Positions 36,799-57,130 of a DNA stretch of 64,000 nt are shown piece by piece. Source of the stretch: Sulfitobacter geojensis. GTDB lineage: Bacteria; Pseudomonadota; Alphaproteobacteria; Rhodobacterales; Rhodobacteraceae. Location: contig NZ_JASE01000005.1 of the NCBI RefSeq assembly GCF_000622325.1, positions 1,054,001 to 1,118,000 of the forward strand, given 5' to 3'. The position numbers and the translations under genes are program-made. Under the pieces are notes generated by a model, which saw only the letters and a program-made list of their open reading frames with translations, did no database searches and was not told where the DNA came from. Each line of letters opens with the position of its first letter. Position 1 is the stretch's first letter.

Positions 36799-37545
36799 TT
36801 AAGCTTGGGTCCATCGGAAGCGTCCGTCAAAGTTGCCGCCCTTTTCCCATGAGAATAGGCACGCGTCGGTCAGGGGGCTGAAAGGGTTCAGCTCGATCAA
36901 CAATGGTTTCAGGCCAGATACTGGCGATTTGCCGTCCGAGGGTAGCAGCGCAAGATCAACGATGACGTCGGAAAGATGCAGTTTTTCCACGATGACTGAA
37001 GCGGCGCGCGCCACCATGGTTTCGATTTCTTTTGCATTGCTGGTGATTTCGGGAAAGCTGCGTCGGTAGGCATATTGTGACGCACCAACAAATCTGCCGT
37101 TCTTGAAAAACAGCCTTACCTCGGACCAGTCCGGTATCTTGCGCCACGCGCGCAGGTGCAGGACAACAGGATCGTCACTGCCGACCAAGACCGACAGGGC
37201 GTTCCCGACACGCGGGTCATCGGTCGTGATGATTTGCATAACGTCATTACGGGTCTTGGCGGCTCGCTTTTCAATCAGCGATGCTTTCCAGCTACAATAG
37301 CCAATACGCGGCATGACCCCTTCGGGATACTTCAGCAAAGCAGAGTCAATTTCGGTAAGCAGAGCTTTTGACAGAAAATCCCGCGCCCTGACATCGAACT
37401 GCTGACGAAATGCCGTGGAAAAAGCACCAAGCGCCGATGCATCTTCCGGGGTCAGCACGATGGAAGTCATCGGTGCAGCCAAATTTTTCAAGGGTGCAGG
37501 CCAGTTTTCCGGAAACGTCTGACTGATGGCAAAGGGAAAGCTCAT
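36799..37545 (-). CDS. CDC123-like ATP-grasp protein
   Basis: A 248-residue protein resembling the CDC123/D123 family, whose eukaryotic members help assemble initiation factor eIF2. Correspondences I see: FPENWPAPLKNLAAP at the start, a conserved lysine in SWKAS (K87), RAWRKIPDWSEVRLFFKNGRFVGASQ in the middle (cf. eukaryotic LRKW...EFRCFV...GISQ), VIVDLAL near 197, and LIELNPFSPLTDACLFSW with E218/N220 as probable metal ligands. The family is an R2K-type ATP-grasp clade, and bacterial members were proposed from genomics to act in polymorphic-toxin systems. It overlaps the SMI1 gene by 4 bases, last in the toxin cassette. Confidence 0.75.
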   Translation of the reverse strand: MSFPFAISQTFPENWPAPLKNLAAPMTSIVLTPEDASALGAFSTAFRQQFDVRARDFLSKALLTEIDSALLKYPEGVMPRIGYCSWKASLIEKRAAKTRNDVMQIITTDDPRVGNALSVLVGSDDPVVLHLRAWRKIPDWSEVRLFFKNGRFVGASQYAYRRSFPEITSNAKEIETMVARAASVIVEKLHLSDVIVDLALLPSDGKSPVSGLKPLLIELNPFSPLTDACLFSWEKGGNFDGRFRWTQA

Positions 37546-38087
37546 TTGAGGTCGAGATCAACCGCGTTCGCGACGATGAACGGGGTTGCCCAATGATCAT
37601 AGCCAATCTTGTCATCGGTGTCATACAGACTGTCGAGAAAAGCTGTAAAGCTCTCAGACTGTTGAAAAATATGGGCTTCATTGTTGTCTTCGCTGCCCCA
37701 ATCCGCGCTGTTTGCCTGCCATAGAAATACACGGCCAAAATCACTCGGGCGCAACGAAAGCAAAAATATCAACCCGCCGGGGTCTTCGCCGATCAGCAAA
37801 AAGCCCTCAGGCACAGCGCTGCCGAAGATCTCGCCCCGTGCATGGGATTCGACGTTTTCCAAACTGAACAGCCGGTCACAAAATGCCTGGCGGTCAACGG
37901 AGCGGCGGACCGCATCCGGCGTCACCTCGTCAAATACATTCGGATAGGGAAAACCACCGTCATAACGGGTAAGAAATGCCGTATAATCAGCGGGCAGTTT
38001 CCCCCCGACGCCTGCCGCAAAATCCGCGATGCGGGCGGCCTGATCAGCTGGAACAGGCGCGCGGCCTTTTTCAGGAGCAATTTTCAT
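37542..38087 (-). CDS. SMI1/KNR4 family immunity protein
   Basis: A 181-residue soluble protein of the SMI1/KNR4 superfamily, the commonest immunity fold of bacterial polymorphic toxins. The diagnostic start is KLPADYTAFLTRYDGGFPYP near residue 30. Further features are PEGFLLIGEDPGGLIFLLSL, FLWQANSADWG and a late SFTAFLDSLYD helix. It starts 17 bases after the nuclease toxin stop, the usual place for cognate immunity, and its last bases overlap the start of the CDC123-like gene. Neutralisation of the upstream nuclease is inferred. Confidence 0.82.
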   Translation of the reverse strand: MKIAPEKGRAPVPADQAARIADFAAGVGGKLPADYTAFLTRYDGGFPYPNVFDEVTPDAVRRSVDRQAFCDRLFSLENVESHARGEIFGSAVPEGFLLIGEDPGGLIFLLSLRPSDFGRVFLWQANSADWGSEDNNEAHIFQQSESFTAFLDSLYDTDDKIGYDHWATPFIVANAVDLDLK

Positions 38088-38104: not shown

Positions 38105-38959
38105 TTAAAATTCACTGGCGTTGGAGCCTTCATACAAGGAGGCTCCGCCCATGTGCGGTGTGGATGCGCCGCCACCCGTGGCGTGGATATTCTGCGGTAT
38201 CAGTTCCATGGTGACGCCGTTTTCATTGTGGTGCCACGTGTGGCCGGAGGGGCGACGCCAGTCCGGATCGCCCAGTTGTTCGCGCATGGCCTTGTCAGCT
38301 GCGGTGAAATCGGTTGTCCGGTTGCCGCGCATCGGAATGTCGACATTCCCAGCGGAATGCGGGCTGTAGTCGGGAAAACCGTTGCTGTAGGTAATCGGCG
38401 GTCCCCCGTTGGAAGGGGTCCAAACACCGTCGCCGCGTTCGCCGCTGCTCCATTCTCCGTTATCGCCACTTTTGGGTGTGTTGTTGTATTGCGGGCCCTT
38501 CTTCGCGGCCGCAGCTTCGCGGCAGGCACGACTGCCATTACAGGCGGCGAGGGCTTCGTCATATTCGGCCTTGTTAGCGGCAACCACATCGTCCCAATAC
38601 CGCGCTGCGGCGTCTTTCGTACCACGAAAGGCCCGCGACACACCTGTGGAGGCAACATCCAGCGCGCGGCGAAAGTCATTCAACTTGTTGGCCAGTCGCG
38701 TGCCCTTAATTGCATCCCCGCCCAAGGGCACGACGCCGACAATATCAAAGAACGCGTCGCCCCAGTTGCCTTTCCACAGCGAACGGCCAAGCGAGGCGAT
38801 ATCGGCGGCAGTGCCCGCTGGCGGCGGCAGAAAGCTTGCCGCAGCAAGGCTGGCTTCGGTGGCAAGCTCGCCGTATTGGGCCTGCAAGTCACGCAGTTCC
38901 CCATAGGCTGTGCGGGTCTGGGCCACATCTACCCCGTCAGCTTCCAGATATCGGCTCAT
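38105..38959 (-). CDS. Polymorphic toxin with C-terminal WHH-type HNH nuclease domain
   Basis: A 284-residue protein without signal peptide. Residues 40-90 (FLPPPAGTAADIASLGRS, DIVGVVPLGGDAIKG) resemble a hydrophobic pre-toxin segment. Residues 170-205 (GEWSSGERGDGVW, ITYSNGFPDYSPHS) and 239-272 (GHTWHHNENG, MELIPQNIHA, PHMGG) form an HNH/endonuclease VII-type toxin domain with W242-H243-H244, H259 and H269. A DNase is the likely activity. There is no long N-terminal repeat region, so it may be a compact cargo effector. It overlaps the accessory gene by 4 bases and is followed by an SMI1 immunity gene. Confidence 0.8.
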   Translation of the reverse strand: MSRYLEADGVDVAQTRTAYGELRDLQAQYGELATEASLAAASFLPPPAGTAADIASLGRSLWKGNWGDAFFDIVGVVPLGGDAIKGTRLANKLNDFRRALDVASTGVSRAFRGTKDAAARYWDDVVAANKAEYDEALAACNGSRACREAAAAKKGPQYNNTPKSGDNGEWSSGERGDGVWTPSNGGPPITYSNGFPDYSPHSAGNVDIPMRGNRTTDFTAADKAMREQLGDPDWRRPSGHTWHHNENGVTMELIPQNIHATGGGASTPHMGGASLYEGSNASEF

Positions 38960-39683: not shown

Positions 39684-41279
39684 ATGACGCATGGTGATCA
39701 TCGCCACCACCACCATAGCCGCGAGGCAAAGTGGAAAACATTTAAAACCAAAGAATCCGGCCTACCGAATTACAAACAAAAACACTTAGACAAGTTACAA
39801 CAACGCCTCAGTGGCCGTATTCAACTGGCAGGGGCACCCGGATATAACGACGACCGCATGGTTTTCATGCATACCTATCAGCAATATCCGCAGGTCATTG
39901 TGTTTTGCGAATGCGAAACGGATGTGATTGCCGCGTTGGAGTTCGCACTTAAATCGCGGCTTCAGGTGACGGCCCGTTCGGGGGGGCATTGCACGGCGGG
40001 GTATTCGGTGAACGATCAAGTCGTGATTGATACCTCGGGGTTGAACCATCTTGTGGTGGAATGTGAAACACCGACCGTGCGCTGCGGGCCGGGTGTGACG
40101 TTTCGCAAACTGAACCGCATGCTTGATCATCACAAGCTACACCTGCCCGGCGGCGGCTGTGAAACGGTGAACGTCGCGGGGTATATGATGGGCGGCGGTT
40201 ACGGGTTCACGTCTCGGCTGTTCGGGATGAATTGTGACCGTGTGACTGGTGTTAAGGTCGCGCTGGCGGACGGGACGGTCGTGACGGCCAACGCCGACGA
40301 GAACGCCGATCTGTTCTGGGCGATACGCGGGGGCACCGGCAACCAGTTCGGTATCCTGCTGGAAGTGACCTATGACCCTGTGCCGCTGGACCGCAAGTTT
40401 TTCGGTTTCGGGTTGCTATGGAACATGCGCCACAAACATGAAGCCGACATTCAGCGGGTGTGCCGCGTGCTGGAAACCTTGCAGGCGGAATACTCCAATT
40501 CTGGGCCGGCCAAGATGGGGCATCAGGCCTTGTTAATGTACTTACCGGATGCGGATCACCCCGACGGACAGATCCCCTGCCTGTCCTTACGGGGCCTCTA
40601 TGACGGGACCCGTGCGGAAGCAGAGGCAGCCCTTGGCCCGTTACTCGCCACTTTGGAAGACCCGCGCAAAGACGTGGAAATCTGGACGCATAAACATCAT
40701 TATACCCGCCTGAACGAGCTGTTGTTGCAGACTGCAAATCCGGCGGGCCATGACATGCCAACGGTGTCGATGAACACCAAGCCGCTGGTCGAGGGGTGGT
40801 TGATCGAAGAACACCATAGCGCGGACCGGTGGCGGGGCGTGGTCGATCATTTTCTGGATGCGCCGGATAAAACCTGTTTCATTGCGATGGAGTTTTACGG
40901 TGGTGCGATTGCAGACCCGAAGCCCGACGAGATGGCTTTTTACCACCGCACGCCATCGGTTGATCTGTTCAGCTGGGCATTTTGGACATTTGATACCCAC
41001 AAGGACGCCTCGATTGGCTGGCTGGACGGATTGGGCGCGATCGCGGGGCCGATGGGCAACGGGCACCGCTATCAAAACTATCCGCGTCGCGGGACCAAAG
41101 ATTTCTTACAGGCATATTTCGGGAGCAACCTGCCGCGCTTGCAAGAAGCGAAGGCGAAATTTGATCCGCATAACATGTTCTGGTTTGAGCAAAGCATAGG
41201 TCCCAAACCTGACAGACAACCACCCGAGCAGGAAGCGTTAGCGGATGAAACGGGGGATGAACGCCATGACGACCGATAA
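39684..41279 (+). CDS. BBE-like FAD-dependent oxidase with bicovalent flavin site
   Basis: FAD-linked oxidase of the berberine-bridge/GOOX (PCMH-FAD) family, 531 residues. H102 in ARSGGHCTAGYS and C159 in PGGGCETVNVAG sit where these enzymes attach FAD through both His and Cys, 57 residues apart as in characterised members. FAD-contact GGGYGFTSRLFG and the C-terminal BBE segment (FDPHNMFWFEQSI) are present. The N-terminus is His-rich (HGDHRHHHHS) and there is no signal peptide. It overlaps the LodA-like gene by 14 bases, heading a tightly coupled five-gene operon; its substrate may be a product or precursor of that pathway. Confidence 0.85.
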   Translation: MTHGDHRHHHHSREAKWKTFKTKESGLPNYKQKHLDKLQQRLSGRIQLAGAPGYNDDRMVFMHTYQQYPQVIVFCECETDVIAALEFALKSRLQVTARSGGHCTAGYSVNDQVVIDTSGLNHLVVECETPTVRCGPGVTFRKLNRMLDHHKLHLPGGGCETVNVAGYMMGGGYGFTSRLFGMNCDRVTGVKVALADGTVVTANADENADLFWAIRGGTGNQFGILLEVTYDPVPLDRKFFGFGLLWNMRHKHEADIQRVCRVLETLQAEYSNSGPAKMGHQALLMYLPDADHPDGQIPCLSLRGLYDGTRAEAEAALGPLLATLEDPRKDVEIWTHKHHYTRLNELLLQTANPAGHDMPTVSMNTKPLVEGWLIEEHHSADRWRGVVDHFLDAPDKTCFIAMEFYGGAIADPKPDEMAFYHRTPSVDLFSWAFWTFDTHKDASIGWLDGLGAIAGPMGNGHRYQNYPRRGTKDFLQAYFGSNLPRLQEAKAKFDPHNMFWFEQSIGPKPDRQPPEQEALADETGDERHDDR

Positions 41280-43083
41280 ATTGAAACCCTGCACGCATGC
41301 GGACCCTGAAACTTGCGAACCTTGGTGTGGACGTGATCCGAAACAGGGGCGGATGTTGGGTATTTTCTTTGACCCGCCCATGGCGATTGCACGGGTGGGG
41401 CGGTCAAAAGAACCGATGCCGGCCTACCGATGGAAGCTGGATGAAAATCCGGCACGCGGCGTGCAGACCATGATCGAACCCGCGCCGAGCCTGATCGAGA
41501 CATCGGTCAAGGGCAACGGGCATCACCCCTTTACCTTGAAGGTGCAGACGCCAGCACAGGTGACGTTCAAGGACCGCCATGGCAAGATCAAACCGGTATC
41601 ACCGTTCTTTGAGCTTTGGGCGCGCCTTCAGGATGCTGACGGTTCGGTTGTCCAAGTCCCTGTGACCCGCCACTTTCTGGAACAACGCGGCACCAGTCTG
41701 AAACACCTGCTGTTTACCGTCGAAGCGGCCAACCGCAAGGCGGAATCGCGCACCAAGCTGGCGTCTTGCGCAGCGGTGGCCCGCAAGGTTTTTGCAGCCG
41801 ATCACTATAAAACCCACCATCTGGACGCTATTAGCCCGCATACCGAAGGGCAGGTGCCACTGGTGCGCGAGGATGCGCCGTTGCCACTGGGCACGATCAG
41901 GACGTTTAAAGAAAACCTCGAAAACATCAGCTGTAAAACGCGGCTGGATCAGGTGCGCATCCGCTTCATTCCCGGCAAGGGCGACAGTTTTGGTCCACCC
42001 GAAGCGGCCAAGGCACCGGCGTCCCCGCTACCTGCGGGCGGGTTCGAACCGCCAATGACCGAATACGGTCCGATCCACAAAATGACCCGCAAGGAAAACC
42101 GCATCCTCAGTTCGGATACCCCGTGGCTGGGGTACAATTTTCGCACCGATGATGCGCCGAAATGGCCCACGCCGATGGACAGTTATGACGGGGCGCGCGT
42201 CGGCTCCGGTAACGGGTGGGGGTTGATTGACGACACTTGCGATCTGGTGCTGACAGCGCAGATGGCAGTGGACGGCAAGGCACATGTAGCGCAGGCACGC
42301 GCAATGGCAGGTCCGCCCGATTTTGCGCCGGACAAACGCCCGATGTATTCGATACAGGATGAATTGGAAGACCGCGATCTGCCGCCCGCGACACTGGATA
42401 TCGACGAAACGCCGGTTGAAATACTGGACCTGTTCCGCCGGATTTTTGAAACCGCCAGCCTGATCAATCTGGATCAACGCCGGTCTTGGGCGCTGGATGG
42501 CAATGCGCAACTGCTCAGCGAACCGGATGAGAACGACCCCGATTGGGACGCGGGTATCACACCGCATCTGGGGCTGAAATCCATGCGCGAAAGCGATGCG
42601 CCCTATGCCAGTCTGGTGCCGGAATACACACCGGGGCAGGGCGATACCATTGAACCGCGCTCGGGTGCGAACGACCGTCTGCCCTACACGCAAGTTGTGC
42701 AGCAAGTACATGCGCGCATGTGTGACAGCCCGATCCTACGCGCATTTTTGGTGCGTGATCCTGACCGTGTTCGCCGTCTTGTGCGCCCACCTTTTGCGCA
42801 TGTGGGGGAGCTTGCGAAAATTCCCGGAGTGCAAAAAGGACCATCTGTGAATTTTGGCGCAAACGGGCCTGACGACATCGAATTTCGCGATCCGCGCGTG
42901 ACCCTTGCCCAGACCTACGACATGCGCATGCCGCCTTATATGCGCCATTCGATGGGGGTGCCCCTGTCGGTGACACGGCGGCAATATGACCTGCTGATGA
43001 GATATCTCGAAAAGCTGGAGGGGGTCTGGAAGCACACCGTGCAGCCTCAGGTCGATATACCCGCCGCGGAGGAACAAGCATGA
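41266..43083 (+). CDS. LodA-like quinoprotein oxidase, N-terminal part
   Basis: 605 residues. The start region MLGIFFDPPMAIARVGRSKEP (about 28-48) matches the I-x-P-x-x-x-IARVG-x-S opening of LodA/GoxA amino-acid oxidases, which carry a cysteine tryptophylquinone. GWGLIDDTCDLVL (about 317) and late VTRRQYDLLMRYLEKLEG also fit that family. It lacks the FfPGIE and PWxxD...C blocks that I expect at the LodA C-terminus; these appear in the next protein, which overlaps by 4 bases. An N-terminal cysteine cluster (CTHADPETCEPWC) is unexplained. I read it as one half of a split oxidase; ATG 41266 is preferred after GGGGGA. Confidence 0.7.
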   Translation: MTTDKLKPCTHADPETCEPWCGRDPKQGRMLGIFFDPPMAIARVGRSKEPMPAYRWKLDENPARGVQTMIEPAPSLIETSVKGNGHHPFTLKVQTPAQVTFKDRHGKIKPVSPFFELWARLQDADGSVVQVPVTRHFLEQRGTSLKHLLFTVEAANRKAESRTKLASCAAVARKVFAADHYKTHHLDAISPHTEGQVPLVREDAPLPLGTIRTFKENLENISCKTRLDQVRIRFIPGKGDSFGPPEAAKAPASPLPAGGFEPPMTEYGPIHKMTRKENRILSSDTPWLGYNFRTDDAPKWPTPMDSYDGARVGSGNGWGLIDDTCDLVLTAQMAVDGKAHVAQARAMAGPPDFAPDKRPMYSIQDELEDRDLPPATLDIDETPVEILDLFRRIFETASLINLDQRRSWALDGNAQLLSEPDENDPDWDAGITPHLGLKSMRESDAPYASLVPEYTPGQGDTIEPRSGANDRLPYTQVVQQVHARMCDSPILRAFLVRDPDRVRRLVRPPFAHVGELAKIPGVQKGPSVNFGANGPDDIEFRDPRVTLAQTYDMRMPPYMRHSMGVPLSVTRRQYDLLMRYLEKLEGVWKHTVQPQVDIPAAEEQA

Positions 43084-44894
43084 CAGCCGGACCCAGACAA
43101 TTGAACAAGGCCCGCAGGGCCGATCCCGACGGCAACCCCGCATATCGTGAACCGGTCTTGGGCAATCCGGTGTCGACCTTGATGGAATCCGGTGTCGGGA
43201 ATTGCTTTCCAGGATTGGAATTCGATCTGCGCCAGTTAGATGTGCGGTTCTTTCCGGGCTTGGTGTTTGAATTCCTTGGCATCACCCCTGCGGGACCGGA
43301 TGGCACGCAAGGCGCGCGGCTGACCTATGCTTTTCCCAAGGGCGATCCGATCATCGCGGATAAATACACCGATGACGGCCCCGATTGGGTCACTGACCTG
43401 AAAAAACAGTTTGCCGGTCCGGCCGGTTCGGCGCTGGGCAGCGGTACGTGGTATCTGCATTTCGTCGAACAGGACGGCAAGCGGATCATGCTGTATGACT
43501 ATTCGCTTTATCAGAATGGCGTGGGGCTGGTGCCTTATGAGGGGGAAACCGCGTGGTGGATCATCCGCCTGATCGAGCCGGAAAAGCCGCTGACCATTGC
43601 CCTGACGCAACGCGCGCCGGATGGATCGCCCAGCGGCGCACCCGTTGTGCTGACCGGACGGCGGCGTATGTTCCTGAACGACGAAGGGATGATTGATCCG
43701 GTTTACCACCCTGGTGAACTTACCTCGTCCATGTGCAGCCCCTGGACACATGATTTTCGCGATTGTGCCTGCCACTATTGGGCGTCGAACCACCCCGATG
43801 TTGTCTTGGGTGACGTTGACGACCCGCAGCAACAACTGCCCGACGGGACGGACAAGAACGATCCGGCACAGGCGGTCACGTTTATCGACTGGATGCGCAG
43901 ACGGCATTTGCCGCTGAGGGATGTATCGGCCCAGACCACCTTGGAAAAAGCGCGCCCCGATAGATACGATCCTTACGAAATCAACCTGCATTGGGAGGAG
44001 CTGGATTTCGTCCTGCAGGGGCAGGAGACCGACGCGACAACTGATTTGAAAAAGCTGCAACCGCACGCGCCCTACCAAGAGCTCGACGATTTGATTGCCG
44101 ACCTGCACGAACTGGCGGGGATGGAGCTGACCTTGGCACTGGAATACCTTTATGCCTATTTCAGCCTGCGTGAACCTGACGAAGTGACGCCGCAGCAAGA
44201 GGCCGCATGGCCCGGCCTGACAGAAGACTTGCGCGCGGCACGGCAATTGATCCTTTCGGTTGCGCTCAGTGAAATGACGCATCTGCGTTGGGTCAATCAA
44301 ACGCTATGGCTGATCTTTGCGGCCTATCCCGATATCGGCACTTATGAACCCGTCCTGTCACCCAGCACGGTCGAAGCAGACCCCAACAGCGCAGTGGGCC
44401 AAAGCGGTACGGGGAAATTGCGCCCCGCGACACAGGACGTTTTGCAGAACTTTGTAGACATCGAACGCCCCGGTGGGGATCTTGATACGGAATACGTCAA
44501 ACTGGTCGCATACTTGCGCGAATATATGGATGATTTTCCCGAGGGGTTGTATCAACTTGCCGTGCGGATCGACAGCGACGGGATGCAACACTACCAGAAG
44601 TTCCGCGATGTGAAGCGTATCCTGGAACCCTACGCCGCTCAGGAAGCCCTGTATCTGCGCCCCATCGAAGAGGCGAGGCCAGACGCGTCTGCGGTCCAGC
44701 CGGCCCTGACCTTGATTGACTCGGCGCTGGAAGCCCTGCGCAAGGGGTATCTGATCGAAGCAAACCTTGGCGATATGGCAACGGCCAATGCAGAGATAAA
44801 AAGCGCACGCGATGCCATGCACGCCCTTAGCGATATGGCCTTGGCCCTTGCCCGCGAAAACATTGGCGTGCCGTTTTTTGCGCGTTTAAAATGA
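43080..44894 (+). CDS. LodA-like C-terminal part fused to a VioB-type ferritin-like domain
   Basis: 604 residues. Residues 30-245 contain GVGNCFPGLEFDLRQLD (C42) and GELTSSMCSPWTHDFRDC, then ACHYWASNHPD (C219, W222, C229, C231, W234), which resemble the C-terminal blocks of LodA-like oxidases including the PWxxD tryptophan region. Residues 335-600 are a ferritin-like domain of the VioB/iminophenyl-pyruvate dimer synthase type: MELTLALEYLYAYFSL, SEMTHLRWVNQ with E398/H401, and a degenerate second motif DGMQHYQKF. A quinone cofactor built here, plus a di-metal site, is inferred. It overlaps its neighbours by 4 bases on both sides. Confidence 0.68.
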   Translation: MTAGPRQLNKARRADPDGNPAYREPVLGNPVSTLMESGVGNCFPGLEFDLRQLDVRFFPGLVFEFLGITPAGPDGTQGARLTYAFPKGDPIIADKYTDDGPDWVTDLKKQFAGPAGSALGSGTWYLHFVEQDGKRIMLYDYSLYQNGVGLVPYEGETAWWIIRLIEPEKPLTIALTQRAPDGSPSGAPVVLTGRRRMFLNDEGMIDPVYHPGELTSSMCSPWTHDFRDCACHYWASNHPDVVLGDVDDPQQQLPDGTDKNDPAQAVTFIDWMRRRHLPLRDVSAQTTLEKARPDRYDPYEINLHWEELDFVLQGQETDATTDLKKLQPHAPYQELDDLIADLHELAGMELTLALEYLYAYFSLREPDEVTPQQEAAWPGLTEDLRAARQLILSVALSEMTHLRWVNQTLWLIFAAYPDIGTYEPVLSPSTVEADPNSAVGQSGTGKLRPATQDVLQNFVDIERPGGDLDTEYVKLVAYLREYMDDFPEGLYQLAVRIDSDGMQHYQKFRDVKRILEPYAAQEALYLRPIEEARPDASAVQPALTLIDSALEALRKGYLIEANLGDMATANAEIKSARDAMHALSDMALALARENIGVPFFARLK

Positions 44895-46213
44895 CGGGGG
44901 TTCTGCCAGATATCAAACGGAAACCGCCCAGCGGGTTGGCCCATGTGGCGGGCGATCTGGTGTTGATGGCGGAAACTGCTGCGATCTTTGGTCTGTCCGA
45001 CGTGCAAGCGGCGAATTTACGTATCGCCCTGCAGGCAGGGGATGCGACGGCCGCTCCTGAACTCGCGCGGTTGGGGCTGGAGGCACCGACCCTTGGTGCG
45101 CCGCCCGCTGTTGGTGTTCATCCCGTGCGGGCGTTGGCCCTGACGGTTTCGCAAACCTGCAATCTGGCCTGCGGATATTGCTATGCGGCGGGGGGGAGTT
45201 TTGGCGGCGCGGACACGCGCATGGGATGGGACGTCGCCAAACGTGCGATTGATCAACTGATCGACGCGACCGTGCCGGGCGGCGGTGTGAAAATTGCCTT
45301 TATGGGGGGTGAACCCATGGTGGCGCGGGATTTGATCCGAAATTCAGTGACTTATGCAAATGAACGCGGGGCGGCGCGGGCTGTTCAGGTCGGATATTCC
45401 CTGACCACCAATGGGACGTTGATCTCTGCCGAGGACGCGGCATTCTTTGCCCGTCATCGGTTTGCCGTGACGGTTTCTTTGGATGGCGGACAGGCGGTGA
45501 ACGACCGGTTACGCCCCGATCGCGCGGGCAAAGGCAGCTTTGCGCGCGTTGCAAAACGCCTTGCGCCCTTGCTGGATCATCACGACCGGATTTCGCTTGG
45601 CGCACGGGTGACGGTGACCCCGCATAATCTGGATTTGCCACAGGTTATTGACGACATCGCAGCACTTGGCTTTGCTTCGGTCGGGGTGTCACCGATGATT
45701 TCATCGCCTACAGGACAGGGGGCTTTGGTCGGGCAGGATTTTGCACAATTGCTGTCCGCGATGACCGAGTGCGGCGAGGCATGGATGACAGCGACCCTTG
45801 CAGGGCGCGCGCATCCGTTTGCCAATCTGGCCACTGTGCTGGGCGAACTCCATCGCGGAAACCCGCGCAGTCATGGTTGCGGTGCTGCGCGTGATTATCT
45901 GGCGGTGGATGCCTCGGGCGATTATTCGGCCTGTCACCGGTTTGTAAAAGATCCGCTGGGCGCGATGGGTGATCTGGAAAACGGACCGGATGATGCAGCG
46001 CGCGCCGCGTTTCTGGATGCGCGCACGGTGGAACGCCAAACCCCGTGTCAAACCTGCTGGGCGCGGCGGCTGTGTGGTGGCGGGTGTCATCAAGAAGTAT
46101 TGCACGCGGGGCGTCCGGCGTGTGATTTTGTACGGGGGTGGCTGGATTACGGGCTGCGATCCTACGGGCGGCTGACCGCGGCACAGCCCGACTGGTTTGA
46201 TGCGCAAGTCTAG
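44891..46213 (+). CDS. Radical SAM/SPASM peptide maturase (QhpD-like)
   Basis: A 440-residue radical S-adenosylmethionine enzyme. The [4Fe-4S] cluster motif is CNLACGYCY (C90, C94, C97), followed by FMGGEP and SLDGG. The C-terminal SPASM region has cysteines in HGCGAARDY, YSACHRF, PCQTCWARRLCGGGCHQE and PACDF, enough for two auxiliary clusters. This architecture installs thioether or similar crosslinks in proteins; QhpD does so in quinohemoprotein amine dehydrogenase. The likely substrate is the adjacent LodA-like pair. It overlaps the upstream gene by 4 bases and the flavoprotein by 14. Confidence 0.87.
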   Translation: MTGVLPDIKRKPPSGLAHVAGDLVLMAETAAIFGLSDVQAANLRIALQAGDATAAPELARLGLEAPTLGAPPAVGVHPVRALALTVSQTCNLACGYCYAAGGSFGGADTRMGWDVAKRAIDQLIDATVPGGGVKIAFMGGEPMVARDLIRNSVTYANERGAARAVQVGYSLTTNGTLISAEDAAFFARHRFAVTVSLDGGQAVNDRLRPDRAGKGSFARVAKRLAPLLDHHDRISLGARVTVTPHNLDLPQVIDDIAALGFASVGVSPMISSPTGQGALVGQDFAQLLSAMTECGEAWMTATLAGRAHPFANLATVLGELHRGNPRSHGCGAARDYLAVDASGDYSACHRFVKDPLGAMGDLENGPDDAARAAFLDARTVERQTPCQTCWARRLCGGGCHQEVLHAGRPACDFVRGWLDYGLRSYGRLTAAQPDWFDAQV

Positions 46214-47540
46214 CGTTCAGGTCGCGGTCGCAGGCGCGGGACCGGCCGGTGCGATTGCCGCGCGTCAATTGGGTCTGGCCGGTCTTGATGTGGTGCTGAT
46301 CGATCCGTTTGTGACGCCGGCAGGGCATCTGATCGAAAGTTTTCCGGCCTCAGGCGCGCCAATGGCGGAGGAAATTGGCCTGCTCGCGGCGATTTGCGAT
46401 GTCAGTGACGGCCCTGCCGAAGCGATGTTTATGGCGTGGCGCGGCGTGCCGGAAACGCGTACGTTCGAAGGGGCGGGGCCACTGCTGCTGGACCGGATCG
46501 CTTTGCATGAAAAGGTGCGGGCAGAGGCGTTGCGGCATGTTACGCCCTTACAGGCGCGACTGCGGGGCGTGGTGAAATCGGGCCGTAAGGTCGAGCTGTC
46601 AACGAGCGCAGGTACGATCCGATGCGACATGTTGATCGACGCGCGGGGGCGACAGGCGCAAAAGCGGGCAGCGTCGGATGTGACCGCCCTGCCGTTTTCC
46701 GCAGTAAACGATTTGCCCCCCCATCAGATGTGGCTTGAGGCGTTGCCGGACGGCTGGGTCTGGGCCTGCTCACTTGGCGGCGGCGTGGTGCAGGGGGCCG
46801 TGTTCCAGCGCGCTGCTGTTTTGGCGGGGATGCGTGGGCCGGCTCGGGCTGCCTATGTCGCGGATTGTTTGGCCGGTACGGACACCTTTGTGGGGGCACG
46901 CGGGATTGATGCGGGGAAACCTGCTGCTGCGGGACTTTCGGCCGCGGCTGATCCGTTGGTATCCGAGCGTCATATTCTGGTGGGAGATGCGGCACTGGCA
47001 CGTGATCCAATTGCCTCGCACGGGTTGGTGCATGCCATGCGCAGCGGTGTCCAAGGGGCGCTGGCGGTGCTGACGGCGCTTGATCGCGACTGCGACAGCC
47101 ATGCCGCTTTCAGTTTCATGCGCCACAAACACCGCGAAGCCGTAGCTGCGGCGCAGCTTGCCACGCAGCGGGCCTATGCGGATCAATCGCGTTTTGAAGC
47201 GCCGTTCTGGGCAACGTGCGAACCACCCCGCAGCATACCGGACCAGCCGGACATCGGCCAAGGCGCGGTCACGCTGGCGGCACCGTTGACCCGCGCGCCG
47301 GTGTTGGAAAACGACCGCATACGTTGGAGGCCAGCGATCGAATTGTCCGCGAGTGACAGTTTCCTGACAGGTTTAGGGTCGATCAGCGCGTTAGACATTG
47401 CTGCGGCCTGTCGCCCCGCAGCGCCATTGCCTGAAATCGCCAACCGTCTGGGCCGCCAACATGACATGCCGGCGGTTTTTGAAGTCCTGGAACGCCTGAC
47501 GCTTGGCGGTGCCTTTGTTCAGGCCGCGGTTGCGCCCTGA
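46200..47540 (+). CDS. LodB/QhpG-like FAD-dependent modifying enzyme
   Basis: Flavoprotein of the tryptophan-halogenase/GGR-like superfamily, 446 residues. Dinucleotide motif AGAGPAGAIAARQL near residue 10, conserved DARGRQ near 150, and HILVGDAALARDPIASHGLVHA near 265, the FAD-binding block seen in LodB and QhpG. LodB and QhpG are needed to hydroxylate the tryptophan during cysteine tryptophylquinone formation. Its place at the end of an operon with LodA-like genes supports that role. A TTG at 46197 is one codon upstream of the chosen ATG. Its 3' end overlaps the convergent regulator gene by 22 bases. Confidence 0.8.
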   Translation: MRKSSVQVAVAGAGPAGAIAARQLGLAGLDVVLIDPFVTPAGHLIESFPASGAPMAEEIGLLAAICDVSDGPAEAMFMAWRGVPETRTFEGAGPLLLDRIALHEKVRAEALRHVTPLQARLRGVVKSGRKVELSTSAGTIRCDMLIDARGRQAQKRAASDVTALPFSAVNDLPPHQMWLEALPDGWVWACSLGGGVVQGAVFQRAAVLAGMRGPARAAYVADCLAGTDTFVGARGIDAGKPAAAGLSAAADPLVSERHILVGDAALARDPIASHGLVHAMRSGVQGALAVLTALDRDCDSHAAFSFMRHKHREAVAAAQLATQRAYADQSRFEAPFWATCEPPRSIPDQPDIGQGAVTLAAPLTRAPVLENDRIRWRPAIELSASDSFLTGLGSISALDIAAACRPAAPLPEIANRLGRQHDMPAVFEVLERLTLGGAFVQAAVAP

Positions 47541-50500
47541 ACCAAAGCTGTCGCGCGTTTCATGTCCCAACCGTGATCATCAGACGCCATCTGTGAAACG
47601 GCGTATTGTACGTCTTGGATTGCATCTGGTGCGGGGTCGGCTTCGGCTCTGTCACACAGGATGCGCAGCGCAAGGGTATGGGCACCGGATGTGCGGGCAC
47701 ACTCCAGCGCCTCGTCGCGCAACTGTCGTGCAATATCGCTGTGCCCACGTTCCGCCGCGACGCGGGCCCGCAAGCGCAGCAGTTCTGGCGCTGTCCATGT
47801 CTCCCCCGTGCGTTGCTCTACTTTCGCACCTTCAGAAAGTGCGTCGTCGGCCCCGTCAATGTCGCCCGCCCGCAGGGAGACATCCGCAATCAGGGAGGCG
47901 ACCAACGGTCCGTAATTGAACGGGTTCATCGCACGGAATTCCTTCACGCGCTCGCTAAGTTCGGTCATTTCATCCGGCTTTGGCGGTTCTGGCCGCAGGC
48001 AAAGCTGGGTCACAAACGGAAACAGGATCGCAGCGGCGCGCATGACACGAATGTCATGTTTCTCGCCCAAGGCGACGGCTTCGATACCGATCACACTTAG
48101 CTCTGCGCCATGACGGGCCAATGCGCCCAAAAGCAGACGAAACGCCATCGCTTGCGCTAACGAGTGGGCGTGCTGGATTTCGCGGGAATGGTCGATGGAG
48201 AACGCGCCGAACTGACGTGATTGCAGCAAATCACCGGTAAGCCAGTTGGACATACACAGGAACGCCGCGCAAATTTCCGCATGATCATAGCCATGCGCAT
48301 GGGCCAGATGCAGATGCGTGTCCTTGTCATACTGGCCGAGGGCCGTGTTCAGGTTTTTTTGGGCCGTTTTCTGGTCAGAGCGGTGAAACGCCACGGCCCC
48401 GATTGCGCGGGTGCCAATCATCACAAAAGTTTTGTCCTGCGACTGGCTTGCCGTTTCCAACAGGGTCTCGGCGTATTCCTGCGCCCTTGGGTAATTCGCC
48501 CGCACCAGTGAATGCGCATAAAGCCCGTTCAGGGCCAGAAGTTCGGTTTTACTATCGCCAATTTCGCGCGCCAGTTGCACCGCTTGCTGACCGAAATCGG
48601 CGCTGGCATCTGTTGCAATGCCAAAGCGCGAGCGTTCAACCGAGGCAAGGCCGGTGATCGCGCGCAGGCGTTTTTGTTTTATCGCATCTTCGGCCGGCAG
48701 GCGCTGCAAGGCGGTGTTTGCCATATCCAGAAAGTGCCCCGCTTCGATCAGGGCAGAGCGTTGCAGCAGGGTTTCGCCGGCGGCGAGGGCATGGAGCGCG
48801 GTGTTTTCCCAATCCCGTGCGACCTGTGCATGGGTGGCAAGAAGATCAGGCTGTTGCGTGCGCATGTCCGTGTGAAAATCACCCAACGCGTTATAGGCCG
48901 CCCGGTGTATTTTCCGGCGCGACTGTCCCACGATTTGTTCATAAATCACGTCGCGATAGACTTGGTGGCGGATGTTGATCACGTCTTGTCCAGCGACCAC
49001 GTTGTGCTGGATCAGGCCGGCCTGTCGCAGTGCGTCTATCGCCGGTGTCATGCTGTTTTCGTTCTGCTCCAGCACAGCAGCCAAAAGCGCTGGGCTCGCG
49101 GGGCTGTTCAACACCGCAAGCGCCTCGATCACACTGCGTCCCAAACGGATCCCGTCAAGCCGCTTGGACACGGATTCATAAATCGTGTGCGGGATTTCGA
49201 CATGGCCCTTCAGCCCGACCGACTGTTGCGCCGCTTGTGCATGGCCCAGCGTTTCCAGCATCAATGGGTTGCCGCCAGAATGATCGAGGATGTTCTGGCG
49301 AATTGAGTGTGCAACAGGTTTGGTGCCAAAGATGCCCTGCAACAGGGTTTCGCAATGGCGCGCGGCCAGCGGTGTCAGCGTCAGGGTCTGGTGTCCGGTG
49401 ACATCTTGCCAGATGTCCGCGCTATCCTCGCGCCCCGCCGCGATCAGCATCAGCGCCGCGCCATCTTGACGCGCGCGTTCTGCGGTGCGTTTCAAAAGTT
49501 CGCGGGTTGAATCATCGGCCCATTGCGCGTTCTCAAGCACCACCAAAGTTGGACCAGTTGCACCGTTGATGATCCAGTCCGACAGGAACTCCAGAACGCC
49601 GTCACGATCGCGCAGGGACAGGGTGGTATCGCTGCGCGGTGTACCACCTAGGCCCAGAAACTGTGCCATACGGTCCAGCATTTGCGGATCCGGCACACCC
49701 AGAATTTGTGACAGGGAAGGGGCCGTTTCACTGCCTGTCGTAAGAGCCTCGAGCATTTTGGCAACTGGCAGCAGCGGTGAACGTGCACCCATTGCGGCAC
49801 AATTCAGTTGCAACACACGTACGGTCGGATTGGTTTGAACAGCCGTGACAAAGCTTTGAAGCAGGGTCGATTTTCCGATGCCGGCATCACCGGTCAGCGT
49901 CACCGTGGAGGGTTTGCCGGCTTGCGCCTGAACCCACAGGCGGCGCAGCGTGCCGGTTTCGCCACTGCGCCCGATCAGCGTGGCAGGACGGGCAGCGCCC
50001 TTGTTTACATGATGCATGCCAAGCACGTGAAACACCTCGGTCCCCAAGGGCAGCCCCTTGAGATCATGTGCTTCGACTTCGGAATAGTGCACGGCATTGC
50101 GCGTCAGGTATTCTGTTTTGCTATCGACCACGATGGCTTGCGGATGTGCCACCGTTTGCAACCGCGCCGCGCGGTTCACCACCGGACCGACCAGTTGCAT
50201 CGCGTCACCGCGCAATGCGCCGCTGGCTTGTCCGACGGCGGCCTGACCGGTGGCAATGCCGATACGGGTCGGAATGTGAAACGATGGCCGGCCATCAAAC
50301 ACGACCAACCGTTCGGCCAGCGCGCGCTGGAAATCTTCCGCGGCCTGAACACAGCGTTCTGCAAACCCGTCCAGCACCCGCGGATAGCCGAACAGGATCA
50401 CCACACCGTCGCCTTGCGAACCCACCAGATAACCATCGCGGGCTTTGGCGACATCAGCGGCAACTTCGTAGTAATGTTGCATGATGATCTGCATGTCCTC

Positions 50501-50815
50501 GATGCTGTGCTGCTGGCTCAATTCGGTGGAACCGACAATATCACAAAACAACACGCTGATGCGGCGCAGTTGGATCGGGGCATCTTCGGGCGGTTCGACA
50601 ACGCGTCGCGGGGCAGGTACCTGTGAGTCTAACCCCTCCAATGCGGCAAGCAGCTTTTTGCGCTGGCCAAGCGTCAGCCCCAGTTCTTTCAGATCGTCCT
50701 TGTCCAGCAGCGGCAGTGTGGACATATCGATGTCTTCACCGGAAAAGACGTCGTGAAGATGGGACAGGCCGATACTGGCCAGAAACTCCGCGATATGAGG
50801 CGTGGGGCTCGTCAT
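47519..50815 (-). CDS. SAM-domain, adenylate/guanylate cyclase, AAA ATPase and TPR protein
   Basis: 1098-residue cytosolic regulator. Residues 1-65 are a sterile-alpha-motif (IAEFLASIGLSHLHDVF, DLKELGLTLGQRKKLL). Residues 83-265 form a class III nucleotide cyclase: metal aspartates D92 (LFCDIVGST) and D136 (SQGDGVV), with the catalytic Asn/Arg in VVNRAARL (N214, R218). A P-loop GDAGIGKST (309-317) begins an AAA-type ATPase, and the last 400 residues are TPR-like helices. The complete catalytic set suggests an active cyclase, making cAMP or cGMP. Such architecture is common in alphaproteobacteria; the signal is unknown. Confidence 0.88.
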   Translation of the reverse strand: MTSPTPHIAEFLASIGLSHLHDVFSGEDIDMSTLPLLDKDDLKELGLTLGQRKKLLAALEGLDSQVPAPRRVVEPPEDAPIQLRRISVLFCDIVGSTELSQQHSIEDMQIIMQHYYEVAADVAKARDGYLVGSQGDGVVILFGYPRVLDGFAERCVQAAEDFQRALAERLVVFDGRPSFHIPTRIGIATGQAAVGQASGALRGDAMQLVGPVVNRAARLQTVAHPQAIVVDSKTEYLTRNAVHYSEVEAHDLKGLPLGTEVFHVLGMHHVNKGAARPATLIGRSGETGTLRRLWVQAQAGKPSTVTLTGDAGIGKSTLLQSFVTAVQTNPTVRVLQLNCAAMGARSPLLPVAKMLEALTTGSETAPSLSQILGVPDPQMLDRMAQFLGLGGTPRSDTTLSLRDRDGVLEFLSDWIINGATGPTLVVLENAQWADDSTRELLKRTAERARQDGAALMLIAAGREDSADIWQDVTGHQTLTLTPLAARHCETLLQGIFGTKPVAHSIRQNILDHSGGNPLMLETLGHAQAAQQSVGLKGHVEIPHTIYESVSKRLDGIRLGRSVIEALAVLNSPASPALLAAVLEQNENSMTPAIDALRQAGLIQHNVVAGQDVINIRHQVYRDVIYEQIVGQSRRKIHRAAYNALGDFHTDMRTQQPDLLATHAQVARDWENTALHALAAGETLLQRSALIEAGHFLDMANTALQRLPAEDAIKQKRLRAITGLASVERSRFGIATDASADFGQQAVQLAREIGDSKTELLALNGLYAHSLVRANYPRAQEYAETLLETASQSQDKTFVMIGTRAIGAVAFHRSDQKTAQKNLNTALGQYDKDTHLHLAHAHGYDHAEICAAFLCMSNWLTGDLLQSRQFGAFSIDHSREIQHAHSLAQAMAFRLLLGALARHGAELSVIGIEAVALGEKHDIRVMRAAAILFPFVTQLCLRPEPPKPDEMTELSERVKEFRAMNPFNYGPLVASLIADVSLRAGDIDGADDALSEGAKVEQRTGETWTAPELLRLRARVAAERGHSDIARQLRDEALECARTSGAHTLALRILCDRAEADPAPDAIQDVQYAVSQMASDDHGWDMKRATALVQGATAA

Positions 50816-51160: not shown

Positions 51161-54100
51161 TCACTGGCCATCGTCCTTTTGATCGTCGTCCTCAACGCTA
51201 TCATCCGCATCATCATCCAACTGTGCGGCAGCATTCAGTGTCGCTTGGCGTTGCTTTAAAAATTCGGCCAGACGCTTTTTGTCATTTGCCACTTCGCCCT
51301 CAATCATCTGGGTTTGGGCCGTCAGGCTTTCGACCACAGCGACGAAATCGGCATGCGCCGCACCGCCGATCCAGTCACCGCCTTCTCCGGGTTCCGCGTT
51401 CTTGGGTGCATATGAGCGCAAGGCTGCGATCAACCCTTTTGTCGCGCCAGCAACATCGTCAAGAAACGTTCCGTACGCCGGGGTTTCACGCGCTGGATTG
51501 GAAATGTCGAATTCAGGAAAGTCCGTGTCGCGCTTGGCCGCATAATCAGAATCCGGCCCCAGTAACGCCACCAGCAACGACAGTTGGCGGTCAATTTCGG
51601 GTGTCTTGAGCGAAGCCTCGGACAGCGGCGGTATCGCACGTTGTGCCGCCGCCCCTTTGAAACGCAACCAGCTCACCAATGTCGGCGATGGCGTGCCGGG
51701 GTGCCAGTCTTTCTTGATCGGAACGCGTTTCAGGATTTGCGGGTCGTCGCTGTACAGCGTTTCAAAATAGCTCACAACTTTTTGGCAGACATTCTTTTGA
51801 TCGGCCAGAACTTCGGGCGTGATCCCGCAGCTGCGCCCGACTTCTTTGGCGATGGGATCTCCGTCAATCACAATGCCATAGGCGATAACGCATTTCGACA
51901 ATGTGGAATTCCATTTCATCGCGGTGCGGGCCCGTTTACGGTCGCCCGGCGATTTCAGCGCGATCTGGTAAAGCTGCCAACCGGCCTCAATCTCGGCCTC
52001 TTTTTGTATTTTATAGGCGAATTCCGTCAATGCGCGCGCCATGCTTGTGCCGACCTGAATGCCCACGCCAGCGGCCGTGCCGCCGCCCATACTTACACCC
52101 GACGCATCGGCAAGTTTGATCGATTCCGCAGCAACCCCCAAGGCGTCGTAAAGCACGCGCAACACCTGAAGGCTGACTTGCACACGGGCCGAATTCAACC
52201 GGCCATTGATCGCAGGACCATAGACCGAGCTGTTGCCCACGGTCAGCGCCATGTTGTCCATCCATTTGTTCAACTGATAGCTTTTTCGCACCAGCGTCGT
52301 GGCATCAATCAAAAGTTTCTGGATCGCCACGGCAAGTCCGGCACCGGGCAATGCGGCAGCAACTGCGGCTGCGCCAACGCCGGTAATCACCTCAAGCGCC
52401 TGCCATTTCATGTTGCAAGACCGCGCTTCGGCCAGCAGCTTGTCCATTGCTGCCATCGCCTTTTGCTCTTTTTCGACGGTGTCGAGATCTTGGGGCGATT
52501 GCCCCGCATCTTCGAGCAGTTCGTTCAGCACTTCCATTTCACGCGCACTGGCGTCTTCGATCTGAGCAAAGAACTCTTCTTTCTTGGCTGGATCTTGCAG
52601 GTCGGCTTTGAAATCCGACATGGCGCGGGCCTTGCGGGCGTTTTCCTGCTCGGCCAGAAACTTTTTCTGGGCCATCAGGGCCTCGGGGCTGTCCACCGGC
52701 GTTTCCATACCAAGGCCCGGCTTGGCGGTTTCACCAAGCCCCTGTGCGGCGTCGGCATCGTTGTTAAAGCTATCGTATTCGGCCTGCGTCTTCTGAAACA
52801 GCGCGTTGTCACTTCCCATTTCGACGTCTTCAACAGCGACGACTGTATAGGTGCCACCGGCGATAGCCGGCATGGCCCCGGCAAGAGAGGCGCTGATCGC
52901 CGAAAAGCCGACATTGGCGAGGATCACTTTCAAATCAACCTTGCCGCCGTCGCTGGCCACAACATCCGCCAGATGTTTGGCGATGGCCGGAATGTTGGAA
53001 CCGGCAAGGATCGCTGCCTGAATGGTCAGGCCCATTTGCTGCCATTGCGCCTGATCGCCAAGCACCATGTTGCCCTGATCATCGGTACCGCGCTTGACGT
53101 CACCGGCGGCAAAGCTGGCCCCGACGGCCGCTGCAATGCCCTGTAACGCCTCGGTGATACCGGCCACGCCACCGTTGTAATCCCCGTCGGAAAACTTCAT
53201 CGCGGCAGAGAACAGGGCAAAGCCGGTGTTCCCGCCTGCAATCAGGGCCGTCACAGACTTTGACGCGATGTTCATCTGGGTCTGGAATGCGGAGGAAAAC
53301 CCTGTTGTCGCGTCTGATGCCACAACATTGGCGGAATGGACCGAAATGGCCGCCGATGCGGCACTGCCCAATGCGTTGAACGCCTGTTTCGCGATGCCCG
53401 CGGCAAAGGTTCTGCGCCGCCCGTCTTCGGGTTTGTCCAAGGTTGAATCAAGGATCCCCAAACCGCCGGTCAGCACGGTGGTGGTCATGGTCACAGCGGC
53501 AACTTGCAGCGCGGCATCGCGCGCCTGTTGCTTGAGCCCGTTCATTTTTTCGATGTTTTCCAACTGTGCCGGTGTGGCAACGCCTGCAGTTTTGTCGGCG
53601 TTATCCTGCGCCAAGGTCAGCATGTCCTGACGCGACATGGATTGCGCTTCGAAGCTGTCGATTTTGATCGCGTCGCCGGCCAGCGACCCCATTAACGAAA
53701 TCACATCCGTGCCAATCTTTATCGCACGTTTGGCATTGGTATATTTCGAGGCCGTCTTGGAATAATCCGTTAACTTGTCCTGATAGATTTCGCAGGCACC
53801 GTTAAAAACCTGCGCTTCCTGACTATACTTATCAGCCACCGCGTTGGACGGGATTACATCGGCCTGAACCAGCGGTGTCCACAATTCGCGCGTGATATCG
53901 GCAGGCGTGAACAAGGGATTGCCGTCGGCGTCTTTGGCGTTCTCCATTTCCGACTGTAAATCGAACAGCTTTTCATGAAGCTTGGTCAGTTTGCGCACCG
54001 CCTCATCGTCGACCATATAGTCGTCTTTCAGGTCGTGCTTGGTATCAACCTCGTCGTCGCGATCACCATTTTTCCAGTCCATTGATTTGTTCGAACGGTC

Positions 54101-54307
54101 AAACAAACCCAGAAATTTTTCGCGTTTCCACTCAACCTTCAGGTCATCGGATGCATCCATCAGATCATCCTGAAGGTCGGAAATTTCACCGGTGACCGCG
54201 GCCAACAGAACATTACGTGCGTCCTGTTTCTGCGTTATTTCGTCATAGTTGATTGCACTTTGCTGGGTGGCCGAGAGCCATTTCGTGTGCGCTTGGGTAA
54301 AAGCCAT
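51161..54307 (-). CDS. Large uncharacterised protein with hydrophobic segments
   Basis: 1048 residues, no signal peptide, family not recognised. The N-terminal 200 residues are charged and helical (DLQDDLMDASDDLKVEW). Between about 260 and 480 several Ala/Gly/Thr-rich hydrophobic stretches occur (VTMTTTVLTGGLGIL, AFNALGSAASAAISVHSA, ALQGIAAAVGASFAAG), with a similar stretch near 650 (VITGVGAAAVAAALPGAGLA). Such segments are seen in pore-forming or membrane-inserting toxins, but this is only a resemblance. The tail is acidic (DDDADDSVEDDDQKDD). It is last of three co-oriented genes, 17 bases after the second. Confidence 0.6.
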   Translation of the reverse strand: MAFTQAHTKWLSATQQSAINYDEITQKQDARNVLLAAVTGEISDLQDDLMDASDDLKVEWKREKFLGLFDRSNKSMDWKNGDRDDEVDTKHDLKDDYMVDDEAVRKLTKLHEKLFDLQSEMENAKDADGNPLFTPADITRELWTPLVQADVIPSNAVADKYSQEAQVFNGACEIYQDKLTDYSKTASKYTNAKRAIKIGTDVISLMGSLAGDAIKIDSFEAQSMSRQDMLTLAQDNADKTAGVATPAQLENIEKMNGLKQQARDAALQVAAVTMTTTVLTGGLGILDSTLDKPEDGRRRTFAAGIAKQAFNALGSAASAAISVHSANVVASDATTGFSSAFQTQMNIASKSVTALIAGGNTGFALFSAAMKFSDGDYNGGVAGITEALQGIAAAVGASFAAGDVKRGTDDQGNMVLGDQAQWQQMGLTIQAAILAGSNIPAIAKHLADVVASDGGKVDLKVILANVGFSAISASLAGAMPAIAGGTYTVVAVEDVEMGSDNALFQKTQAEYDSFNNDADAAQGLGETAKPGLGMETPVDSPEALMAQKKFLAEQENARKARAMSDFKADLQDPAKKEEFFAQIEDASAREMEVLNELLEDAGQSPQDLDTVEKEQKAMAAMDKLLAEARSCNMKWQALEVITGVGAAAVAAALPGAGLAVAIQKLLIDATTLVRKSYQLNKWMDNMALTVGNSSVYGPAINGRLNSARVQVSLQVLRVLYDALGVAAESIKLADASGVSMGGGTAAGVGIQVGTSMARALTEFAYKIQKEAEIEAGWQLYQIALKSPGDRKRARTAMKWNSTLSKCVIAYGIVIDGDPIAKEVGRSCGITPEVLADQKNVCQKVVSYFETLYSDDPQILKRVPIKKDWHPGTPSPTLVSWLRFKGAAAQRAIPPLSEASLKTPEIDRQLSLLVALLGPDSDYAAKRDTDFPEFDISNPARETPAYGTFLDDVAGATKGLIAALRSYAPKNAEPGEGGDWIGGAAHADFVAVVESLTAQTQMIEGEVANDKKRLAEFLKQRQATLNAAAQLDDDADDSVEDDDQKDDGQ

Positions 54308-54324
54308 GGAAGTCTCCGATCCAT

Positions 54325-57117: not shown

Positions 57118-57130
57118 TTATTCTCTCCGG

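Follow-up and report, generated by a model that had tools for sequence, protein, structure and literature searches.

Two described kinds of enzyme with cysteine tryptophylquinone (CTQ) mature differently. The LodA and GoxA oxidases form CTQ with a flavoprotein maturase (PMC7876137, PMC4417212), whereas quinohemoprotein amine dehydrogenase (QHNDH, QhpABC) is served by the radical SAM enzyme QhpD and the flavoprotein QhpG; the paper on QhpG deals with QHNDH and draws comparisons to LodA and GoxA (PMC7876137). QhpD is reported to form Cys-Asp and Cys-Glu crosslinks, as is the peptide maturase PapB (PMC11002830), and in the QHNDH subunit QhpC, Cys37 and Trp43 make up the CTQ and Cys41 and Asp49 a thioether (PMC7876137). 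Here, we describe a locus in the 4.23 Mb genome of Sulfitobacter geojensis, located in a window of 64,000 nucleotides (contig NZ_JASE01000005.1, forward-strand positions 1,054,001 to 1,118,000; coordinates below count from the first base of this window). Its five genes, P1 to P5, probably encode a two-subunit oxidase of the LodA/GoxA fold, acting on a primary amine or amino acid, together with the machinery that builds its cofactor. The family would thus combine the body of one known system with the maturases and the crosslink motif known from the other.

The starts and stops across 39684-47540 read as follows:

39684..41279, plus strand: P1, BBE-type FAD (flavin adenine dinucleotide) oxidase, EncM-like (ATG start, TAA stop)
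41266..43083, plus strand: P2, large subunit corresponding to the N-terminal part of LodA/GoxA (ATG start, TGA stop)
43080..44894, plus strand: P3, small subunit with a LodA_C-like cofactor domain and a C-terminal ferritin-like domain (ATG start, TGA stop)
44891..46213, plus strand: P4, QhpD-like radical SAM/SPASM maturase (ATG start, TAG stop)
46200..47540, plus strand: P5, QhpG-like flavoprotein monooxygenase (ATG start, TGA stop)

Consecutive genes overlap by 14, 4, 4 and 14 bases, both four-base overlaps being ATGA, exactly as the first-pass annotation of this DNA, made from the sequence alone, had described (five plus-strand genes overlapping by 4 to 14 bases). Purine-rich stretches lie 5′ of P1, P2 and P3.

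Taken alone, P2 has no significant Pfam match, LodA_N included, and only a single weak match to the GoxA model (E 0.023), so that its likeness to LodA becomes visible only through family profiles. Searches of the PDB with the single P2 or P3 sequence likewise found nothing useful, and profiles were therefore needed. A profile of 14 P2-type rows aligned with one of 12 LodA/GoxA proteins at a hhalign E value of 4.5e-19 over 266 columns, and matched GoxA (3.9e-7) and LodA (9.6e-6) in the PDB; as single proteins, three of the 14 match Pfam LodA_N and five the GoxA model. P3 scores 23.0 bits against LodA_C, for which the cut-off is 25, and passes the Pfam cut-off for Ferritin-like. Its domain profile matches the same LodA/GoxA alignment (E 4.1e-8; 20% identity in the aligned part), and among 49 scanned members of the P3 alignment, LodA_C was detected in 37 and Ferritin-like in 47. 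The proteins starting at 41266 and 43080, which the first-pass annotation had taken for LodA-like, are thus indeed related to LodA/GoxA by profile comparison, albeit as two parts of one LodA-type protein rather than as two such proteins.

This assignment is supported by a natural fusion. In a Polyangia metagenome-assembled genome (MAG; locus L050), P2 and P3 are encoded as one frame of 1110 amino acids, to the corresponding parts of which the window proteins are 39% (P2, 204 of 527 aligned columns) and 40% (P3, 218 of 544) identical. An AlphaFold model of the fusion, computed from 71 rows, has a mean predicted local distance difference test (pLDDT) of 84.5 and a predicted template modelling (pTM) score of 0.86, and all 46 of its PDB matches at E<=0.001 are LodA or GoxA chains. 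Other departures from the common layout were noted among the relatives. In a Nostoc plasmid (L010, 5977-7611), a ferritin-like domain seems to have taken the place of the large subunit's N-terminal part, and three copies of the system (L051, L073 and L074) are apparently fragmented into several frames as assembled.

The cofactor site is predicted from a compact motif in P3, which is preceded by a second conserved segment closer to the N-terminus:

43734..43799, plus strand: P3 residues 219-240, C219-x5-D225-x3-C229-x-C231-x2-W234-x5-D240, predicted crosslink and CTQ site
43203..43226, plus strand: P3 C42, E47 and D49 (NCFPGLEFD), candidate third Cys-Glu/Asp crosslink

We aligned 91 small-subunit domains, three of them second copies (P3 numbering is the alignment position plus 5). 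C219, W222, D225, C229 and C231 occur in 90 of 90 readable rows, and W234 and D240 in 89 of 89. C42 is present in 86 and D49 in 87 of 88 readable rows; the 86 rows with C42 include 86 with D49 and 83 with E47. The three that lack E47 keep D49, and D49 is absent from one of the two rows devoid of C42, which bears on whether E47 or D49 would be the partner of C42; in QhpC, this partner is a Glu. The scan that fetched most rows demanded either of two patterns, containing C42 or C229-C231-W234; C219, D225 and D240 are part of neither, and 11 rows match the C42 pattern only, yet retain C-x-C-x2-W. Further upstream, N9 is conserved in 87 of 88 rows, and the stretch around it is retained within the fusion protein; P4 may recognise P3 at this residue.

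Alignment with LodA pairs its CTQ cysteine (C516) with C229 and its residue 512, an Asp (chain numbering), with D225, and W234 falls on the Trp of WWP, for the LodA CTQ Trp (W581). The cysteine of NCFPGLE, our first guess for the CTQ cysteine, was dropped because C516 aligned to C229. Residues of QhpC, of which 24 letters were read from chain 1jju_C, are paired with P3 by hhalign as C27/C219, D33/D225, C37/C229, C41/C231, W43/W234 and D49/D240. The comparison of the small-subunit and QhpC profiles (91 versus nine rows) yields an E value of 5.3e-4, and that of QhpC with LodA/GoxA 4.5e-5; in each case, none of 150 column-shuffled QhpC profiles scored as high. QhpC bears two further crosslinks, Cys27-Asp33 and Cys7-Glu16, the latter at x8 spacing. 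The Cys-Asp thioether motif around the CTQ Trp of QHNDH is matched in P3, where both the thioether bonds and the quinone are predictions from sequence.

The two additional cysteines distinguish the family from LodA and GoxA. Both C219 and C231 are present in all 87 readable distinct loci; for 81 of them, the available sequence also shows a radical SAM gene, and in the other six (L020, L023, L032, L033, L064 and L075) the contig ends near the small-subunit gene. By contrast, none of 25 distinct LodA/GoxA proteins has Cys at the C219 position (Ala in 14, Gly in 10, Ser in one; two carry Cys one residue further) or at the C231 position, two residues past the CTQ cysteine.

The genes are also consistently linked, as a neighbourhood survey demonstrates. 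Within 8 kb of the small-subunit gene, the 64 fully flanked loci contain a radical SAM gene in 64 cases, a large-subunit gene in 62, a flavoprotein gene in 61 and all three in 60. This count keeps near-copies, such as L039/L040; nine loci helped to build the profiles, and among the remaining 55, all three genes are found in 51. Because the same set recurs across loci, the five-gene arrangement is not due to chance. Two orders are common, namely, large subunit-small subunit-radical SAM-flavoprotein, which a BBE gene may precede (as it does in the window), and large subunit-radical SAM-small subunit, with the flavoprotein gene behind or divergently in front. In 20 loci of stand-alone LodA/GoxA genes, for which 5.4 to 9 kb were available on each flank (only 0.6 kb on one side of L146), a flavoprotein match was found in all 20 and a match to the radical SAM profile in one. 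The latter (L131 3271+, G901) is encoded on the opposite strand, ~4 kb before the flavoprotein start, and probably is a different radical SAM enzyme, given its score of 85 bits compared with mostly 469 to 693 bits for the linked proteins and 327 to 370 bits for QhpD proteins.

These contrasts bear on an alternative explanation, whereby P2 and P3 are an ordinary LodA/LodB-type CTQ oxidase split by chance, accompanied by a radical SAM enzyme that acts on a different peptide or is dispensable for cofactor formation. LodA and GoxA do form CTQ with a flavoprotein maturase, as cited above, and P5 scores against the GoxB and LodB models too. Nevertheless, we consider this explanation unlikely, in view of the radical SAM gene that accompanies the split genes in either gene order, compared with one weak case beside LodA/GoxA, and of the extra cysteines, invariant here and missing there. 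Moreover, because P1 to P5 overlap, the block has no space for a further peptide gene.

Independent of this comparison, five loci were observed to carry LodA-type genes no more than ~10 kb away from the split genes (L007 17350+, L012 1-899 on the minus strand, L059 2425-, L080 2+ and L090 3029-). A LodA-type protein encoded in L097/L130 (G250) shares with the small subunit its compact Cys-x4-Trp spacing and RPD, lacks the extra cysteines and has no radical SAM match within ~8 kb on each side; it is possibly an intermediate.

Relatives of the system are widespread. A genome scan returned 205 stretches encoding a relative, of which the best 80 were kept and 78 loci used, and relatives were also found on 16 plasmid records. 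Judging by record titles, the hosts include Pseudomonadota of several classes, Acidobacteria, Cyanobacteria, Myxococcota, Actinomycetota, Planctomycetota, Chloroflexota (Anaerolineae) and others, with many MAGs. Among the matches listed, Sulfitobacter sp. M05 is the closest named relative, with a small-subunit domain that is 95% identical. Near kin are sparse: matches were obtained in four of 295 genomes of the family and two of 385 genomes of the class, S. geojensis included in both, the second class match covering 31 residues at 20 bits, and no LodA_C match was found in the seven other genomes of the genus listed.

For P4, the best NCBIfam model is that of QhpD (TIGR03906; 312 bits, 4.7e-93), followed by the PapB model (252 bits, 8.2e-75). 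The protein matches Pfam radical SAM, with Pfam SPASM itself under the cut-off, and its family profile matches CteB (5wgg) with an E value of 3.1e-88. CxxxCxxC and seven further cysteines in the C-terminal half are invariant in 20 rows, five of which are QhpD. PapB accepts Cys-Xn-Asp with n from 0 to 6 (PMC9413430), a range that includes C219-x5-D225 but not C231-x8-D240; the spacing of QhpC Cys41-Asp49 is x7. P5 is best matched by the QhpG model (NF049967; 203.6 bits, 5e-60), ahead of GoxB (76.8 bits) and LodB (46.9 bits), and its closest PDB match is QhpG (7ctq; E 9.6e-16), nearly full length over residues 7-406. The first-pass annotation was accordingly right about the radical SAM maturase, for which the QhpD model scores highest, and mistaken in calling the flavoprotein LodB-like, as it is QhpG-like by score. 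In a flavoprotein tree built by a quick method, with 36 of 94 forks left open, LodB-type rows lie on one side of a branch with support of 93. The flavoproteins of two qhp loci (L126 and L128) share a fork (support 89) with BBE-type and seven type-B rows, and that of a third (L127) sits among other type-B rows; given these different places, the flavoproteins of the split system are not one group. The Novosphingobium sp. RL4 plasmid that includes L127 bears a divergent qhpC and, elsewhere, a stretch resembling the small-subunit motif.

Several observations weigh against the interpretation proposed here. Both maturases fall short of the curated cut-offs of their best models (312 versus 453 bits for P4 and QhpD; 203.6 versus 240 bits for P5 and QhpG), and P4 does not reach that of PapB either. 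In the radical SAM tree, the nine QhpD rows make up one side, and because the tree has no outgroup, it leaves undecided whether QhpD is the nearest kin of P4; in the flavoprotein tree, most type-B rows lie elsewhere than QhpG. Compared with QHNDH, the five genes include neither the QhpE leader protease nor the QhpF exporter, P3 is far larger than QhpC and its motif sits within a large LodA-type domain. The match of P3 with QhpC is short (32 columns, probability 30.5%; the best shuffle scored 28.1 versus 29.4) and, with three QhpC rows only, its E value is 0.033; the CTQ cysteine and Trp are six residues apart in QhpC (Cys-x5-Trp) and five in P3 (Cys-x4-Trp). As for the structure models, TM-scores of the fusion to LodA/GoxA, normalised by the query, are low (0.16-0.29), so that the placement of the domains relative to one another differs or is uncertain, and the cofactor segment (741-764) is modelled with moderate confidence only (block means of 62, 58 and 79). 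Modelled alone, window P3 reached a pLDDT of 78.9 and a pTM of 0.60, with residues 217-237 below a pLDDT of 50; the sole match of this model at E<=0.001 was 3hl1, a ferritin-like protein (6.3e-4), and LodA chains were absent from the top 50. The last outcome would fit, without proving it, a subunit that depends on its partner.

Some of these points would also suit a cofactor other than CTQ, such as a Trp that is crosslinked or carries a different hydroxylation, on a P3 subunit that P4 does crosslink. P3 is divergent, with 20% identity in its aligned part, its Cys-x4-Trp spacing differs from the Cys-x5-Trp of QhpC, and a sequence cannot reveal the cofactor. However, the CTQ cysteine, the CTQ Trp and the conserved Asp are all invariant, and a flavoprotein of this group is nearby in 61 of the 64 loci, making a different cofactor unlikely.

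The second half of P3 contains the ferritin-like domain, the Pfam-matched part of which is:

44115..44474, plus strand: P3 residues 346-465, ferritin-like domain (PF12902, 2e-9)

Within it, E398-x2-H401 is at least 90% conserved in 49 rows. A ferritin-like neighbour of a LodA-type gene is not new, as such neighbours are described in the 2015 survey of LodA-like genes (PMC4417212). The domain could itself be regarded as the catalyst, in a VioB/RebD-like imine coupling to which the LodA-like part would contribute structure only. Weak matches of ferritin-like parts to the VioB model (P3, E 0.12; one of 14 large subunits, 1.6e-19) and the ferritin-like N-terminus of the large subunit in L010 point in this direction. 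Yet L048, L049 and L053 encode the ferritin-like domain in a gene of its own, L012 and L014 have a weakly matching separate gene, and no such domain was detected in the fetched stretch of L011. We rejected the VioB-like reading, which appears highly improbable, because all six of these loci retain the LodA_C motif.

Returning to the two-subunit CTQ oxidase, the following sequence of events can be proposed. P4 would first form two thioethers in P3, C219-D225 and C231-D240, and perhaps also link C42 to D49 or E47. P5 would then hydroxylate W234 twice, and C229 would add to W234, giving CTQ. Binding of P2 would complete the active site, in which the quinone may oxidise an amine or amino acid as in LodA/GoxA, with either oxygen or the ferritin-like domain receiving the electrons; the BBE enzyme may work on the same substrate or on its product. 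The first-pass annotation had proposed that both maturation styles converge on one LodA-like enzyme, and the profiles, the natural fusion, the linkage across phyla and the residue correspondence with QhpC all support this proposal.

P1 exceeds the Pfam cut-offs for FAD_binding_4 (9.6e-29) and BBE (1.6e-15), its closest PDB match is EncM (E 4.3e-44), and it presumably carries the His and Cys of a bicovalent flavin. A BBE oxidase and a ferritin domain had been named as additions to the system; both are present in the window, although the BBE gene occurs in only 21 of the 64 fully flanked loci. A sixth gene is linked to this version of the locus:

47519..50815, minus strand: protein with a SAM domain, a guanylate/adenylate cyclase domain and AAA_16 (Pfam), convergent with the operon

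A search of 87 loci detected this gene in 23, every one of them of BBE type. In the seven of 30 BBE-type loci from which it is missing, the contig ends at most 0.9 kb past the last operon frame seen. The encoded protein is a possible signalling partner.

Immediately upstream of the operon, the minus strand encodes a nuclease of the WHH/colicin-DNase type (38105-38959) and, after it, a SUKH-type protein (37542-38087), a pair that looks like a polymorphic toxin with its immunity protein. On the other side, 51161-58465 (minus strand) encodes three large proteins, none with a Pfam match over the cut-off, the first of which is conserved in L015 (86% identity).

The main text of the 2015 LodA-like gene survey does not contain the word radical (PMC4417212), and no LodA-like protein with a radical SAM partner turned up among the papers listed by text searches of open-access PMC, none of which paired only these two terms. 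The first-pass annotation had regarded the whole gene set as undescribed; this view needs to be narrowed with respect to the ferritin-like gene, already reported beside LodA, and appears to hold for the pairing with a radical SAM enzyme, of which no description was found. In seven annotated plasmid loci, the genes are labelled only as hypothetical, ferritin-like, radical SAM, tryptophan 7-halogenase or FAD-dependent monooxygenase. The family may represent a third, widespread class of tryptophylquinone enzymes, with a two-subunit LodA fold stapled by Cys-Asp thioethers of radical SAM origin, and the CTQ sites of QhpC and LodA/GoxA may be homologous, with these proteins as a living link, rather than independent inventions; we hold the case for and against this broader proposal to be evenly balanced. 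The family bears on the origin of CTQ and on the need of QHNDH for thioethers, both of which are testable in one operon. If a radical SAM enzyme indeed acts on a subunit of several hundred residues, the reach of its kind extends beyond short peptides, and with 205 encoding stretches in a single collection scan, the system is common enough to serve as a source of new amine or amino acid oxidases.

Compared with known systems, P1 is akin to EncM and other BBE-type oxidases by its EncM match and differs from them in its linkage, in a subset of the loci, to a quinoprotein-like operon. P4 belongs to the same radical SAM/SPASM group as the ranthipeptide maturases PapB and CteB, the substrates of which are short Cys-rich peptides, whereas the presumed substrate of P4 is an enzyme subunit. 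With QHNDH, the system shares the radical SAM and flavoprotein pair and the small-subunit motif C-x5-D-x3-C...C...W-x5-D. Nonetheless, it is not a QHNDH, because P1 to P5 include no match to the dihaem protein QhpA, to QhpB or to the QhpC family PF08992, the last of which has no match in the genome of S. geojensis either. With LodA and GoxA, it has in common the fold, as indicated by profiles and the fusion model, the CTQ cysteine and Trp, the conserved Asp, the PGxE motif and an adjoining flavoprotein maturase, and ferritin-like neighbours occur there as well. It differs from them in the division into two subunits that do not reach the family cut-offs (P3 against LodA_C, as given above), in the two extra invariant cysteines of P3 and a nearly invariant third, in the linked radical SAM gene and in a flavoprotein that, in the window, is closer to QhpG.

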